Source of the DNA: Amycolatopsis granulosa
GTDB lineage: Bacteria; Actinomycetota; Actinomycetes; Mycobacteriales; Pseudonocardiaceae
Direction: 5' to 3'
Length of the DNA stretch: 64,000 bases
NCBI RefSeq assembly: GCF_011758745.1
Contig: NZ_JAANOV010000001.1
Span: 1,054,001-1,118,000, forward strand
Made by a program: the position numbers and the translations under genes. The notes beneath the pieces are model-generated. The model did no database searches. It was given only the letters and a program-made list of their open reading frames with translations, and was not told where the DNA came from. How positions within the stretch are numbered: position 1 is the stretch's first letter; each line of letters starts with the position of its first letter. Below, piece after piece: positions 2,014-7,359 of this stretch.

Positions 2014-3309
2014 ATGGCCGACTGTACCCTCGACGCGGCGGCGCTGGCGGCGCTCGCCGGCGAACGGCTCGACTGGCGGTTCAAGTCAATCCCCGCCACG
2101 CTCTGGGGCCACACGCTGGCCGACGCTGCCGCCCTGCGGCCCGGGCTGTTCACCGACGGGTTCGTCGGCCCCGTCGTCGTGCTCGAAGCCGACGCGCTGG
2201 AGCACAACCTGCGCACGATGGCGCAGTGGTGCGCGCGGGCCGGGGTCAAACTCGCACCACACGGCAAGACCACGATGGCGCCACAGCTGTTCGCCCGGCA
2301 GGCCGAGCACGGCGCGTGGGGCATCACCGCCGCCAACGCCGGCCAGCTGCGCGTCTACCGCGCCTTCGGCGTGTCCCGGATCCTGCTGGCCAACGAGCTG
2401 GTCGACCCGGCGGCGCTGCGCTGGCTCGGCGCGGAGCTGGACGCGCATCCGGAGTTCGAGTTCAGCTGCTGGGTCGACTCGGTCCGCTCGGTCGAGCTGA
2501 TGACCGAGGCGCTGCGCGGTACCCGCCGCCCGGTGGACGTGCTGGTGGAACTGGGTGCCGACGGCGGCCGGACCGGCGCGCGCGACCTGGGCACCGCGCT
2601 GACCATCGCCGCGGCCGCGCACGCCAGCCCCGCGCTGCGCCTGACCGGTACCGGCGGGTACGAGGGCGCGCTGGCCCACGACCCGGGCCCGGCCTCGCGC
2701 CGGGTCGTCGACACCTACCTGCGGCGGCTGCGGGAACTCACCATCGCCCTCGGCCGGCGCGGACTGTTCGCGGACCTGGACCAGGTGATCGTCACCGCCG
2801 GCGGTAGCGCCTATTTCGACCAGGTCGCCAGCGCTCTCACCGGCGACTGGGCCGGCCTGCCCGTGGTGCCGGTGCTGCGCAGCGGCGCGTACCTGACGCA
2901 CGACGACGGCTTCTACCGCGGCATCTCCCCGCTGGGCGAGCACCCGCGGATCGCCGGGACACCGCGGTTCCGCTCCGCGCTGCGCGCCTGGGCCCAGGTC
3001 ACCTCCCGTCCCGCCGGCGACCTGGCGCTGCTGACCCTGGGCAAGCGCGACGCCTCCTTCGACGAGGGCCTGCCCGTACCGCAGTGGCACCGGCGCCCCG
3101 GACAGGAACCCGCGGAGCTGACCGGGCACACCGTGACCGCGCTCAACGACCAGCACGCGTTCGTCGCGCTGCCCCCGGGCTCGCCGGTGCGGGTCGGCGA
3201 CTGGATCGGGCTGGGCCTGTCGCACCCGTGCACGGTGTTCGACAAGTGGCCGCTGCTGCCCGTGGTCGACGGCGACACCGTCGTGGACTTCGTCCGCACC
3301 TACTTCTAG
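2014..3309 (+). CDS. D-serine dehydratase / D-threonine aldolase-like PLP enzyme
   Basis: A 431-residue fold-type III (alanine racemase-like barrel) PLP enzyme. The PLP lysine is in LAPHGKTTMAP near residue 87. The C-terminal domain carries NDQHAFVAL and LSHPCTVFDKW: the His and the H-P-C pair match the zinc ligands of the eukaryotic-type D-serine dehydratase and related D-threonine aldolases. Zn-dependent D-serine dehydratase gives pyruvate and ammonia through 2-aminoacrylate, which fits the nearby ridA. Start ATG 2014 with GGAG 6 nt upstream. Length is normal for the family. D-threo-3-hydroxyaspartate or another beta-hydroxy D-amino acid could be the true substrate. Confidence 0.85.
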   Translation: MADCTLDAAALAALAGERLDWRFKSIPATLWGHTLADAAALRPGLFTDGFVGPVVVLEADALEHNLRTMAQWCARAGVKLAPHGKTTMAPQLFARQAEHGAWGITAANAGQLRVYRAFGVSRILLANELVDPAALRWLGAELDAHPEFEFSCWVDSVRSVELMTEALRGTRRPVDVLVELGADGGRTGARDLGTALTIAAAAHASPALRLTGTGGYEGALAHDPGPASRRVVDTYLRRLRELTIALGRRGLFADLDQVIVTAGGSAYFDQVASALTGDWAGLPVVPVLRSGAYLTHDDGFYRGISPLGEHPRIAGTPRFRSALRAWAQVTSRPAGDLALLTLGKRDASFDEGLPVPQWHRRPGQEPAELTGHTVTALNDQHAFVALPPGSPVRVGDWIGLGLSHPCTVFDKWPLLPVVDGDTVVDFVRTYF

Positions 3310-3905
3310 AAGTCCACGGTGGACCTCGTGCCGCGGGATGCGCACGGTGGCGGGCTCGCAGTCGCGCCCGCATCGACAAGGCACGCTCATGCGGATGTGC
3401 CGCTGCTCGCGGCACCGGGTTCGCCGTCGCCGGGCGAGGGAGTCCGAAGTGGACCGGTGCGTGAGCTGGTCGGACGTGCGAGGTGGCCGGCACGCCTGGT
3501 GGCTGCCACAGCTCGCACCGCCGCAGCTGCCTTGCGGGTGCGCCGGACGCGTTCGGGAAGAGGGTGGAGGTGTGCGGCACGGGCCGTTTGCGTGCCGATC
3601 CGGCTGGTTCCTCCCGATGGGCGCGGTATGCGGCATTACCGGCGAGGCGCTGCCGCGTTCCTCGACGCCGCACCCTAGGGTCTTCGGTCAGTTTCCGGGC
3701 AGATGCGACAGCGATTCTCACGCCATGCTTGTGCTCTTGCACACACGGTGAAAACGCCGCACCAGGGCCGAATTCAACCGTCCACTAGGGACCGGTTAGA
3801 GCCGCTCCCGGTGGAAAACCTTCTATCTCAAGGGCCTTCAGTCGATGTTGCCCCGGCCGTAGCATTGGCCGGATCGCTGAGGGAGCAGCGGGGCGGGGAG
3901 GTCTC
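3310..3905. other. Intergenic region without a gene
   Basis: No reading frame here has a convincing start, ribosome binding site or domain. A short palindrome (GTCCAC/GTGGAC) follows the stop of the upstream gene. From about 3690 the composition becomes less GC-rich, and a promoter for the ABC exporter operon is visible at 3837-3865. Confidence 0.6.
3837..3865 (+). promoter_or_regulatory. Putative promoter of the exporter-peptide-kinase operon
   Basis: TTCAGT (3837-3842) and TAGCAT (3860-3865) are separated by 17 bp and would place the transcript start about 33 nt before the ATG at 3906. Recognised by eye only. Confidence 0.45.
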
Positions 3906-5756
3906 ATGGTCACCACCGGCAGACGAGCCGGGCACGTCGGTGAGGTACCGCGCGCGTCCGGCGACCGGCGCCGCCGGCGGATGCTACCGCAGGCGCTCGC
4001 CGTTGCCGCACCCGTGGTCCGCCCGCACCTGCCGGCTCTGGCCGCAACCTCCGTGCTGGAATTGTTCGGGGCCGGCGTGTCCCTGCTCCGCCCGTGGCCA
4101 CTGGCCCTGGCCGTCGACCACGCGATCGGCGGCAGGCCGGCCTCGGGTTTGCTGGTACGGCTCAACGGGTTTTCGCCGGCCTCAATCCTCCTGCTCGCGG
4201 GAGCGGCGACCGTGCTGCTCAGCGTCGTCGCGGGCGTGCTGAACCTCGCCTCCACGGTGTCCGCGGAGCGCGCCGCCGAAGGCGTCGGCGCCAGGCTGCG
4301 GGAATCGGTGTTCGAGCACACGATGGAACTGTCCCTGCGGTGGCACGACCGGATGCCCAGCGGCGAGTTGCTGTCCCGCCTGACCAGCGACGTGGCCCGG
4401 ATGCTGGCCGCCGTGGTCGCGGTGGCGACGATCCTCATCCCGGACACGTTCGTCCTGGTGGTGGTACTCGTCGTACTCGCCCTGTTCGACCCCGGGCTGG
4501 CACTGGTCGGTCTCGCGGTCCTGCCGCTGCTGGTCGTCCTCGCGGTGTGGCAACGGCGCCGGGTGCGGCGCGCGCAGAACGACGCCCGTGACGCCTGGGG
4601 AAACCTGAGTGCGGTCACCAACGACCTGCTGCGCAACGTCCGCGCCGTGCAGGCGTTCGGCCGCGTCGACCGCGCCCGGGAACTGTTCGCCCGGCCCAAC
4701 CGGCGGTTGCGGGACACCGAGGTCAAGGCGGCCACGGTCTCGGCGCGCTGGAGCCCGATCGCGGACATCGTCCTGTCCCTGGGCGCGGGCCTGGTGCTGG
4801 TGATCGGCGGGCGCGCGGTGCTGTCCGGGTCGCTGAGCACCGGTGATCTCCTGGTGATCCTGGCCTACCTGGGCGACATGTACTCGCCCGTGCGCAGCCT
4901 GACCCGCCTGTCCTCGGTGCTGGCCAAGGCGGGTGCGAGCGGCAAGCGCGTGGATGAGGTGCTCACCGCTTCGGAATCGGTGGCCGACGCGGCGTGGGCG
5001 CAGCCGGCCCCGGAGCGCATCGGCGAGGTCCGCTTCGCGCGCGTCGGCTTCGCCTACGAACCCGGGCACCCGGTGCTGCGCGACTTCGACCTGGTCCTCC
5101 GCGCCGGCGAAACCGTGTGCCTGCTGGGACCCAGCGGCGCGGGCAAGAGCACAGTGCTGCACCTGCTGCTGCGGCTCTACGACGCCGACAGCGGCCACAT
5201 CATGATCAATCGCACCGACATCCGCGATCTCCAGCGGCACAGTCTCCGGCAACGGATCGCGTTCGTGCCGCAGGACCCCTGGCTCCTCGACGCGACCGTG
5301 GCGGACAACATCGCGTTCGGCGCCACGGCGGCGGACCGGGCGGCGGTCGAGGAGGCCGGACGGCAGGCCCTGGTGGACGAGTTCGTGCACACCCTGCCCC
5401 ACGGCTACGACACGACGCTCGGCGAAGGGGGCGTCCGCCTCTCCGGCGGTCAGCGGCGGCGGGTGGCGCTCGCCCGGGCCGCCGTGTCCGCCGCGCCGCT
5501 GGTGCTGCTGGACGAGCCGACGGCTTCGCTCGACCCGGTCTCGTCCGCGACCGTCGTCCAGGCGATCCGCGGCGCCACCGCCCACCGGACCGTTCTCATC
5601 GTGACGCACGACCGGGACCTGGCGGCGATCGCCGACCGGGTCGTCGTGCTCGACCGGGACCCGCAACAACCGCACGGAAACGGGAGAGGAGGTGAACCTC
5701 ATGCTGCTGATCAAAGGCCCGATGTCTTACCGCAAGCACGGGCACAAGCACGGTAA
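3906..5756 (+). CDS. ABC exporter, fused membrane and ATPase domains
   Basis: A 616-residue type I ABC half-transporter. An Arg-rich N-terminal tail is followed by a membrane domain (about residues 35-330) and an ATPase domain with Walker A GPSGAGKST (about 407), signature LSGGQRRRVALARA (about 511), Walker B LVLLDEPTAS and H-loop VTHDRD. No C39 peptidase domain is present, so it would not cleave a double-glycine leader. GGGGAGG lies 4 nt before the ATG. The last 56 nt overlap the gene for a small basic peptide in another frame, and a kinase gene follows. The natural inference is that it exports the peptide or a modified form; a lipid or drug substrate remains possible. Confidence 0.9.
   Translation: MVTTGRRAGHVGEVPRASGDRRRRRMLPQALAVAAPVVRPHLPALAATSVLELFGAGVSLLRPWPLALAVDHAIGGRPASGLLVRLNGFSPASILLLAGAATVLLSVVAGVLNLASTVSAERAAEGVGARLRESVFEHTMELSLRWHDRMPSGELLSRLTSDVARMLAAVVAVATILIPDTFVLVVVLVVLALFDPGLALVGLAVLPLLVVLAVWQRRRVRRAQNDARDAWGNLSAVTNDLLRNVRAVQAFGRVDRARELFARPNRRLRDTEVKAATVSARWSPIADIVLSLGAGLVLVIGGRAVLSGSLSTGDLLVILAYLGDMYSPVRSLTRLSSVLAKAGASGKRVDEVLTASESVADAAWAQPAPERIGEVRFARVGFAYEPGHPVLRDFDLVLRAGETVCLLGPSGAGKSTVLHLLLRLYDADSGHIMINRTDIRDLQRHSLRQRIAFVPQDPWLLDATVADNIAFGATAADRAAVEEAGRQALVDEFVHTLPHGYDTTLGEGGVRLSGGQRRRVALARAAVSAAPLVLLDEPTASLDPVSSATVVQAIRGATAHRTVLIVTHDRDLAAIADRVVVLDRDPQQPHGNGRGGEPHAADQRPDVLPQARAQAR
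5687..5695 (+). promoter_or_regulatory. Perfect Shine-Dalgarno for the small peptide gene
   Basis: AGGAGGTGA is a 9-nt perfect complement of the 16S anti-Shine-Dalgarno tail, 5 nt before the ATG at 5701 and inside the 3' end of the exporter gene. It is among the strongest ribosome sites I see in the window and the main reason to accept the 35-codon gene. Confidence 0.85.
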
Positions 5757-5808
5757 GCACGCCGGCAAGACCACTCGCACCACCCGGACCAGCCGTTCGC
5801 GTTGCTGA
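5701..5808 (+). CDS. 35-residue basic His/Lys/Ser/Thr-rich peptide ending in Cys
   Basis: I do not recognise this peptide. It begins MLLIKGPMSYRKHG, continues with alternating His and Lys (His13, 15, 17, 20), then an Arg/Thr/Ser tail K-T-T-R-T-T-R-T-S-R-S-R and a single C-terminal Cys35. It has ten Lys/Arg and no acidic residue. It has no signal peptide and no double-glycine leader. The gene overlaps the exporter by 56 nt, has a perfect Shine-Dalgarno, and is followed by a hairpin before the kinase gene, the usual layout of an abundant precursor peptide. The R-T/S tail looks like a basic kinase target, so phosphorylation by the neighbouring kinase, or dehydration and ring closure on Cys35, are possible. 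A metal-binding peptide is another option. Function is not established. Confidence 0.7.
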   Translation: MLLIKGPMSYRKHGHKHGKHAGKTTRTTRTSRSRC

Positions 5809-5831
5809 TACCGGTATCGATGACCTGGCGG

Positions 5832-5849
5832 CCCGCGCTCGGGCGCGGG
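5832..5849 (+). terminator. Hairpin between peptide and kinase genes
   Basis: CCCGCGC (5832-5838) and GCGCGGG (5843-5849) form a 7-bp stem with a TCGG tetraloop, 23 nt after the peptide stop. There is no T tract. It probably stabilises the upstream mRNA or partly terminates transcription, giving more peptide than kinase. Confidence 0.5.
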
Positions 5850-5877
5850 TCGCCGGGCTCCGGCGGGAAGGACAGGC

Positions 5878-6705
5878 ATGAGCGAAGCCGCGCTCGACGA
5901 CGACGGCGAACCGGTGTGGGACATGGCGGAGGGCGCCGAGTGCCCCGGCCGGACCCGCGCGGTGCGCCGGCTCGGGGTGGGCTGGCGCTGCGAGACCTGG
6001 CTCGTGTGGTCGGTCCCGCTGTGGTGCCCGATGGTGCTGAAACTTCCGCGCCCGCACATGCGCGAGCACCCGCGCGCGGTACGCGCGTTGCGGCGGGAGG
6101 TGACGGCGCTGTCCGGGCCACCACACCCGGGGCTGCCGAGGCTGATCACGGACGGTACCGCCGAACCGCTGCCCCACCTGCTGTTCGAGTACCTCGATGG
6201 TCCCGACCTCGACGACGTCCTGGACGAGGTCGGCCCGCTGGCCGGAGCCGAGGCGGCGTTGCTGGGGGTGCAGCTGCTGTCGGCGGTGGCGGCGGTGCAC
6301 CGGGAAGGCCTGGCGCATCTGGACGTCAAGCCCGGCAACGTCGTCCTGCGCGACGGCAAACCGGTCCTCATCGACTTCGGCAGCGCACGTGCGCTCGGAT
6401 CGCCCCAACCACCGGGACATCCGATCGGGACCCGTGGCTACACATCCCCCGAGCAGGAGGCGTGCCTGACGGTGTCACCGGGGATGGACGTCTACGGGGT
6501 CGGGGCGACCCTGCACGCGGTCGTGACCGGGCACCGGCCGGGAACGGGCGGCCAACCCTGCCCGCCGATGCTGACGGGACTGCTCGCGACCGATCCGGCG
6601 CGGCGCCTGGACGTCAGCGACGCGATCGCCGCGCTCCTCGAGTGGATTCCGGCGGAGTTCCGGCCATGGCCGGAGTGGGCCGACGCCTACCTCGGTGGAG
6701 CGTGA
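5878..6705 (+). CDS. Single-domain Ser/Thr protein kinase
   Basis: A 275-residue Hanks-type kinase with no membrane segment and no extra domain. Key residues are present: Lys55 in VLKLPRP, Glu74 in LRREVTAL, catalytic loop HLDVKPGN (Asp149, Lys151, Asn154), IDFGSA (Asp166), activation segment GTRGYTSPEQ and Asp204 in MDVYGVG. The glycine loop is degenerate. GGAAGGA precedes the ATG. It has no cyclase domain, so it is not a class III/IV lanthipeptide synthetase. The likely substrate is the adjacent peptide or the exporter, by inference from the operon. It is convergent with the NlpC/P60 gene. Confidence 0.88.
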   Translation: MSEAALDDDGEPVWDMAEGAECPGRTRAVRRLGVGWRCETWLVWSVPLWCPMVLKLPRPHMREHPRAVRALRREVTALSGPPHPGLPRLITDGTAEPLPHLLFEYLDGPDLDDVLDEVGPLAGAEAALLGVQLLSAVAAVHREGLAHLDVKPGNVVLRDGKPVLIDFGSARALGSPQPPGHPIGTRGYTSPEQEACLTVSPGMDVYGVGATLHAVVTGHRPGTGGQPCPPMLTGLLATDPARRLDVSDAIAALLEWIPAEFRPWPEWADAYLGGA

Positions 6706-6726
6706 CTGCCGCGCCCGGTGCCGTCG

Positions 6727-7239
6727 TCAGATCCGGCGGGCGTTGTGGAAGGGCATGCCGGCCATCGAGGAGATCTTCACCGGCTGACCGGCGGTGCTGG
6801 CGTGCACGATCTTGCCGTCGCCGACGTAGATGCCGACGTGGCTGACCGGCGTGTAGAAGAACACCAGATCACCGGGCCGCAGCTGGGACAGCGCGACCGG
6901 GGTGCCCATCGTGGACTGAGCGCGGGAGCTGTGCGGGAGGTTCACCCCGGCCTGCTTGAAGGCCCACTGGACGAGGCCGGAGCAGTCGTAGGCGTTGGGA
7001 CCCGCGGCACCCCAGACGTAGGGCTTGCCCAGCTGGGTGAGCGCGTCGCGCAGGGCGGTCGCGCCGACGCTGGTGCCGGTGATCGAGGCCGGCGCGACGG
7101 CCGGTGCGGTGTCGGTCGGGGCGGCCGTGCTGGCGAACGCCGGGCCGGCAGCACCGGCGAGCGCGGCCGCCAGCACGGCGCTGGTGACACCGGCGCGCAG
7201 GAGTTTGCGGCCGGACTTCGGCTGCGGGGACTGTCGCAT
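6727..7239 (-). CDS. Secreted NlpC/P60 peptidoglycan hydrolase
   Basis: A 170-residue secreted cysteine peptidase that would cut stem peptides of peptidoglycan. The signal peptide (residues 1 to about 37) has a basic start, a hydrophobic core and a likely cut after A-F-A. The NlpC/P60 domain covers about residues 60-165 with Cys86 in YDCSGL, His134 in SHVGIYVG and His146 in [13 protein letters not shown] lies before the ATG but falls inside a long structured leader (see 7246-7359), so translation may be regulated. In actinobacteria such hydrolases are often under RNA or second-messenger control. Monocistronic as far as can be seen. Confidence 0.92.
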   Translation of the reverse strand: MRQSPQPKSGRKLLRAGVTSAVLAAALAGAAGPAFASTAAPTDTAPAVAPASITGTSVGATALRDALTQLGKPYVWGAAGPNAYDCSGLVQWAFKQAGVNLPHSSRAQSTMGTPVALSQLRPGDLVFFYTPVSHVGIYVGDGKIVHASTAGQPVKISSMAGMPFHNARRI

Positions 7240-7245
7240 GTCGAG

Positions 7246-7359
7246 CGTTTCCTTTCGCTTTCCACCACCCGTGGCGGGGGATCCACGAAATCGCGGTGGT
7301 GGCTTGCGGCCGTGATCTTTCGGGGTAGATCACTGGTTGCCGCAAGAGCGCTGGAAACG
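7246..7359 (-). ncRNA. Structured 5' leader with three-way junction enclosing the RBS
   Basis: On the minus strand CGTTTCC (7359-7353) pairs with GGAAACG (7252-7246), and after a small internal loop CGCT (7350-7347) pairs with AGCG (7259-7256), closing helix P1. Helix P2 is CTTGCGGC (7346-7339) with GCCGCAAG (7310-7303), extended by GTGATCT/AGATCAC. Helix P3 is CCACCAC (7302-7296) with GTGGTGG (7268-7262), extended by CGTGG/CCACG. P2 and P3 abut with no linker. The 3' strand of P1 includes the ribosome site AAAGGAAA of the NlpC/P60 gene, so closing P1 should block translation. I could not match it to the conserved core of the c-di-AMP (ydaO) riboswitch that often precedes such genes. Confidence 0.6.

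Follow-up and report, generated by a model that had tools for sequence, protein, structure and literature searches.

A 64,000-nucleotide (nt) stretch of Amycolatopsis granulosa DNA (hereafter the window) carries a cassette of three genes in a row, encoding an ATP-binding cassette (ABC) exporter, a 35-residue Arg/Lys/His-rich peptide and a single-domain Ser/Thr kinase. Here, we observed that the peptide gene is real and that the three-gene unit is conserved, with the order exporter, open reading frame (ORF) of 25-46 codons, kinase in 21/21 genomes carrying this kinase lineage. Our preferred reading, to which we give an even chance, is that the cassette yields a short polycationic peptide that the kinase modifies, by phosphorylating its Arg-Ser/Arg-Thr (RS/RT) tail, and the ABC protein exports. 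Judging from sequence, the kinase probably phosphorylates the peptide, which would be both its substrate and the exported cargo. The elements of the cassette are:

3906-5756, forward strand: ABC exporter, first cassette gene, 616 amino acids (aa), Pfam ABC_membrane 1.1e-42 and ABC_tran 9.5e-32 (transmembrane plus nucleotide-binding domain)
5687-5695, forward strand: Shine-Dalgarno (SD) sequence AGGAGGTGA of the peptide gene, within the 3' end of the exporter ORF and 5 nt ahead of the ATG at 5701
5701-5808, forward strand: 35-residue Arg/Lys/His-rich peptide with an R-T/R-S tail, second cassette gene, homologues in 21/21 carriers, under purifying selection
5824-5857, forward strand: stem-loop of 15 bp, a possible attenuator, between peptide stop and kinase start, fold z-score -2.74 in the window
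5878-6705, forward strand: single-domain Ser/Thr kinase, third cassette gene, 275 aa, Pkinase 2.3e-23

Coordinates and Pfam matches thus agree with the original prediction, made from the letters alone, of exporter, peptide and kinase in one row with a 9-nt SD inside the exporter's 3' end. The window peptide, MLLIKGPMSYRKHGHKHGKHAGKTTRTTRTSRSRC, also has the predicted four His within eight residues (13-20) and a Cys at its terminal residue 35. Alternative starts exist at GTG 5692 and ATG 5722, and the alignment of homologues agrees with 5701. When both strands of the 64 kb were passed through an SD filter, this peptide was the sole ORF of 20-60 aa retained. A promoter and terminator consensus scan of 3300-7300 gave no match.

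Since the peptide as query reached only close relatives (3/19 genus genomes at E <= 0.01), homologous loci were collected with the kinase. The cassette kinases matched at E <= 1.2e-87 and the next kinases at 2e-61 or weaker (search in the order of G333). Carriers were found in 4/19 genomes of the genus, 4/249 of the family, 2/394 of a class sample, 2/245 of the family of G333, 13/322 of its order (11 further genomes there having weaker kinases only), 4/396 of a phylum sample and 3/3 of the class of G876; these search sets overlap and, small groups excepted, are samples of genomes, so that "all 21" means every carrier found. In total, the carriers are 21 distinct genomes from six genera, five families and two classes of Actinomycetota, including Microlunatus flavus (L035), a Marmoricola metagenome-assembled genome (MAG; L037) and the MAG of an uncultured actinobacterium (L036). 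Duplicate stretches were counted once per genome (L035/L178, L036/L175/L240, L037/L174 and L116/L179). Homologous loci lacking the peptide ORF would have spoken against the original prediction; the ORF is present in 21/21 genomes of this lineage, and the exporter lies directly upstream in all of them. Viral contigs yielded no relative with the kinase query and a plasmid collection one weak match (31.7% identity); spread by viruses or plasmids was rejected on these grounds.

In a scripted recount, the SD of every cassette locus (20/20) agreed with AGGAGGTGA in at least 8 of its 9 positions; G012 (L002), near-identical to the window, was excluded from this recount and from the tree, its peptide still being examined. 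A small ORF with strong SD and an R-S/R-T pair stood upstream of the kinase in 20/20 cassette loci vs 0/52 other kinase loci, by a filter (basic fraction >= 0.15, at least one R-S/R-T) whose limits were fixed after the cassette peptides were known. The full comparison set of 64 kinases consists of these 52 plus 12 loci of a second peptide-kinase system described below.

The homologous peptides share one feature throughout, namely R-S/R-T pairs, which occur in all 21, so that the R-T/S tail emphasized by the original prediction proved conserved. This is what would be expected if the neighbouring kinase acts on these pairs. A pure (RS)9 tail is present in six genomes; examples of the family are MRIKPVMHHGRSRSRSRSRSRSRSRSRSRG (L185, L187, L188 and L190), MIIIRIKGLVADRKHGRSRSRSRSRSYSRSRSRY (L035), MVKKAIRKHRTRTRSRSRSRSRSHG (L116) and MSRGRGRGRRVRGGHKVFSHHGGHSASSMSKSRTRTRTRTRTRG (L036). 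Net charge is +9 to +14 in every listed peptide except one. At the N-terminus, an [IV]-[KR] motif is found in 12/13 aligned rows, followed by G or P in 9/13. The terminal Cys, for which conservation had been predicted, is not kept: Cys is absent from 14/21 peptides, present in 7/21 and C-terminal in 5/21, and Cys35 was rejected as a functional centre. Metal binding by His, likewise suggested earlier, fails as a common function, as the peptides contain between one and five His, most (RS)9 forms having two. The window peptide had no match in Pfam, NCBIfam, PADLOC or PHROGs; six homologues gave nothing above cut-off in Pfam and NCBIfam, and one none in PHROGs. Sub-threshold matches of homologues to eukaryotic SR-rich proteins and a viral nucleocapsid were attributed to composition. 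L183 (also L236) has two complete tandem RS-peptide genes in one cassette, each with its own SD.

The peptide ORF is under purifying selection in six relatives from genus g438. Over 29 codons, their differences fall 5/0/35 on codon positions 1/2/3, and coding identity is 97% vs 70% for the 110 nt downstream. Between the window and G002, the peptide gene shows six synonymous and seven nonsynonymous base differences, the amino-acid changes being K/R twice, A/T, G/S and T/S. SD filter, locus comparison and purifying selection together rule out a spurious ORF in GC-rich DNA. Within g438, an (RS)n peptide was found at E < 1e-6 in 7/38 genomes, all seven with the kinase; the (RS)n query missed the diverged peptides of two other carriers, G1273 and G1291. 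An eighth match (E 0.0075) is a hexanucleotide DNA repeat (L230:1350-1650, G1261) that gives RS repeats in one of its frames and lacks a start codon immediately ahead; it serves as a negative control. The cassette tails are encoded by mixed Arg and Ser codons, unlike this true hexamer array, and a simple DNA repeat was rejected as their origin.

A long stem directly 3' of the peptide stop was found in 21/21 folded loci; for the 90 nt that follow the stop, the energy z-score is <= -1.44 in 20/21 and +0.56 in L176. Together with the strong SD, the stem-loop suggests, as far as sequence signals can be read, that the peptide is made in large excess over the kinase. Attenuation also has this anatomy, a terminator-like hairpin behind a short ORF in which two amino acids abound, and in L034 the hairpin is followed by a T-rich stretch. 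Translation of the ORF, as a leader peptide, could then govern the stem-loop and through it kinase expression, the peptide itself being functionless. We regard this option as very improbable in view of the selection on amino acids, the N-terminal motif kept in most peptides, the several Arg and Ser codons in the tails and the two complete tandem copies in L183.

The third gene product has the hallmarks of a Hanks-type Ser/Thr kinase. Alignment of nine kinases shows no variation (9/9) at the glycine loop, VAIK Lys, helix-C Glu, HxD, Lys, Asn, DFG Asp or APE Glu positions. Of the other two DFG residues, Phe can be F, L or A, and Gly is replaced by Glu in L177. An AlphaFold2 model has a kinase-like layout at moderate confidence (mean pLDDT 77.5, pTM 0.70, residues 78-106 poor). 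For the window kinase, Pkinase (2.3e-23) is a better match than APH (4.2e-09), and the NCBIfam LanL model matches at 7.1e-22 across the kinase part, far below the LanL cut-off. Among the matches listed (60 of 2003), its nearest solved relatives by sequence are PknB chains (2.9e-40), and none is an SRPK. Its match to the defence kinase family PD-T4-6 (4.6e-33) reflects a shared kinase fold, as does that to PknB-type kinases, both being matches to the general kinase domain; we know of no pairing of either family with a peptide and an exporter. A role in anti-phage defence was rejected, the matches being confined to general kinase and ATPase parts. In the tree, the 20 cassette kinases fall into a single clade (support 0.988), and kinase and exporter tree distances correlate (r 0.955, 0/999 permutations), the exporters being partial at many loci owing to flanks of 1.5 kb. 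In the exporter, the Walker A, LSGGQ and Walker B residues are invariant across five aligned homologues, and no C39 peptidase domain was reported for the window protein. Outside the window, at G000:C1:1730684-1731487, lies a kinase-like frame with one internal TAG, perhaps a broken kinase gene.

Comparison of 16 neighbourhoods, based on rough gene calls by a simple script using GC content at third codon positions (L036 and L240 are one stretch), gave only the exporter and the kinase as gene clusters present in all. Two-component genes, for a histidine kinase, a LuxR-type response regulator or both, lie near the exporter in 8/16 loci and may be regulators. The histidine-kinase cluster occurs in 7/16 and the response-regulator cluster in 5/16, all in families f128 and f56; Pfam confirmed HisKA_3 in L216 (L216:59-1435, reverse strand) and Response_reg/GerE in L035. 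These genes stand upstream of the exporter in L035 and L231-L237. In L241 (G015), a second exporter-like gene of 650 aa, belonging to the exporter cluster, precedes the cassette exporter, some 2.6-4.5 kb ahead of the kinase.

The peptide could instead leave the cell unmodified, to act as a cationic antimicrobial or signal, with a kinase that regulates the cassette or gives immunity and leaves the peptide untouched. This would agree with the high net charge of all listed peptides but one, with a small strong-SD gene followed by a stem-loop and with the two-component genes adjoining the exporter. This option, which we consider unlikely, leaves unexplained the conservation of R-S/R-T pairs and not just of charge, as well as the existence of a second kinase lineage with another Ser/Arg-rich partner.

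The neighbourhoods also bear on the chemistry. The original prediction held that the cassette fits no known class of ribosomally synthesized and post-translationally modified peptide (RiPP), and this stands by neighbours, with exporter and kinase alone common to the 16 loci. Its statement that no protease gene adjoins was inexact: an NlpC/P60 endopeptidase-family gene (6727-7239, reverse strand), convergent with the kinase, begins 21 bp beyond it. Among the 16 loci this neighbour is present in the window and L242 only, and no protease gene is common to all. Nor is any lyase or cyclase, where HopA1-type lyases were covered by gene-call clustering and not by a search aimed at them, nor by a genome-wide search with a lyase profile. 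Lasso-peptide B1/B2 and C proteins were common to the 16 loci in no case, and Pfam found none near L035, L036 and L037. Elsewhere in the window, an Endoribonuclease L-PSP (RidA-type) gene and an IclR-type regulator gene lie side by side (781-1191 and 1179-1922, both reverse strand).

Phosphorylation could also be a first step, after which a trans-acting lyase dehydrates Ser/Thr to give a lanthipeptide-like or dehydrated peptide. Class III-V lanthipeptides use a kinase and then a lyase (PMC9486802), and Cys is present in a third of the peptides (7/21). We judge this route improbable, given the lack of a lyase or cyclase common to the neighbourhoods within the coverage just described, the many peptides devoid of Cys and the distribution of LANC_like matches, which occur in 14/21 carrier genomes and are missing from 7/21, two of these rated 100% complete.

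A second peptide-kinase system was found in the window's family, in other genera (L152-L155, L157-L161, L163, L167, L170, L202-L209 and L243-L254). In 12/64 comparison kinases, another Ser/Arg-rich small protein lies just upstream; it has an N-terminus like MDLSKLFxxVSPAKH and SSSDHRRR-like repeats, with lengths of 49-82 aa in 20 loci. A profile of this protein found it in 23/249 family genomes, ending 66-188 nt before a same-strand kinase match in 23/23 places. Its kinases form a separate clade (0.996; 13 kinases in the tree). Two separate kinase lineages with Arg/Ser-rich partners are, in our view, the best indirect sign that such peptides may be kinase substrates.

In eukaryotes, RS-rich chains bind nucleic acids, and the cassette peptide could likewise be an intracellular, phosphorylation-controlled factor binding nucleic acids or proteins, the exporter carrying something else. 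The second system, with no exporter gene within the stretches searched, agrees with this idea. In the cassette lineage, by contrast, the exporter is adjacent in all 21 genomes and co-diverges with the kinase, and we rate an intracellular factor as unlikely, somewhat more so than secretion of an unmodified peptide.

Several observations weigh against phosphorylation followed by export. On paper, two peptides are poor RS substrates: that of L034 (G015), MQRIKQPISYDRCDDWCGYGHRRRHRRRSWRRYSRWGW, has one R-S pair, and that of L177 (G903), MSSAFRSGGVKGLAQVHAAGCGWRTSTTSRSCSSRSQSCD, has net charge +4 and few pairs. In L046, L084, L091 and L142, exporter and kinase abut without room for a peptide, which means that pairing of an exporter with a kinase can have a different basis; these kinases have 33-41% identity to the query, that of L142 falls outside the cassette clade, and the other three were left out of the tree. 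No relative of the window exporter was found in 24 second-system stretches examined, indicating that peptide-kinase pairing does not generally involve export. The co-divergence of kinase and exporter could also be expected from plain vertical descent. Finally, the cassette kinases are only slightly more acidic than the comparison kinases (mean net charge -4.4 vs -3.1 per 100 aa, 20 vs 64 kinases); an acidic groove for RS docking is therefore not evident, and a strongly acidic kinase was rejected.

Taken with these points, phosphorylation and export of the peptide could proceed as follows. Owing to the strong SD and the stem-loop ahead of the kinase, the peptide would be the major product. It would be recognized by the dedicated kinase, perhaps through docking on the N-terminal [IV]-[KR] motif, and phosphorylated on Ser/Thr of the R-S/R-T tail. 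A strongly positive chain, which might be toxic to its own cell, would thereby acquire alternating charges. Next, the phosphopeptide would be moved by the ABC exporter to the outside of the cell, where removal of the phosphates could release the cationic form for an antagonistic or signalling role. Phosphorylation protects the makers of some antibiotics, and charge masking before export could protect the producer here.

Among known systems, a precursor gene beside a candidate modifying enzyme, as in RiPPs in the broad sense, was found in 21/21 genomes; as regards a leader and its removal, the observations are an N-terminal [IV]-[KR] in 12/13 aligned rows and no protease gene common to the 16 loci. 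Lanthipeptides of classes I-IV are marked by a LanC-like dehydratase/cyclase in the cluster and by core Cys, and neither mark is common to the cassette loci. The cluster of SapB consists of RamC/RamS plus ABC genes, and such class III/IV systems resemble the cassette in kinase-like domain, short peptide and ABC exporter. Unlike them, the 275-aa kinase has no lyase or LanC-like domain, and most cassette peptides lack Cys.

Closer in gene linkage are kinase-tailored lasso peptides such as paeninodin (PadeK) and pseudomycoidin (PsmK), where a gene-linked kinase phosphorylates a Ser of the ribosomal precursor (PMC9266682). The likeness is a kinase gene linked to a small peptide gene. Lasso clusters further depend on B and C proteins, which remove the leader and close the ring, whereas the cassette loci share no such genes, and lasso kinases modify a C-terminal Ser, whereas the cassette tail is an R-S/R-T repeat. 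In class V lanthipeptides (CaoK/CaoY, LxmK/LxmY), a stand-alone kinase acts on precursor Ser/Thr (PMC9486802). CaoK is an APH-type kinase accompanied by a HopA1-type lyase, in contrast to the window kinase, which is closer to Pkinase and, by gene-call clustering, has no lyase common to its loci. As precedents for a kinase that modifies a gene-linked peptide, lasso kinases and CaoK each work alongside other enzymes, which are not shared by the cassette loci.

An analogy, and only that, exists with eukaryotic Ser/Arg-rich (SR) proteins and their SRPK/CLK kinases, in which Arg-Ser dipeptide repeats are the likely kinase target on both sides. The cassette differs in that its kinase is nearest PknB among the solved relatives listed and an exporter is part of the unit. 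An RNA-recognition domain is also missing, the peptides measuring 25-46 aa and Pfam giving nothing above cut-off in the seven scanned.

Beyond the single cassette, we put forward tentatively, at a little below even confidence, that Actinomycetota have a counterpart of RS-tail phosphorylation, in which dedicated kinases, recruited at least twice, would phosphorylate gene-linked Arg-Ser-rich peptides, one form of which would be exported as a secreted class defined by repeated Ser/Thr phosphorylation, with no lyase, cyclase or protease genes in its cluster. No described counterpart was found in the family libraries searched or in a literature search, most subscription journals being outside its coverage. 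Short and located in GC-rich DNA, such peptide genes are easily overlooked. If the proposal is true, bacteria would have a novel type of peptide system, similar to the SR proteins and kinases paired in animal and plant cells, and a phosphorylation-only class would be added to the bacterial secreted peptides. In this context, orphan bacterial Ser/Thr kinases would gain a gene-linked substrate, which is usually hard to find, and the cassette might serve as a minimal bacterial model for RS-repeat phosphorylation.

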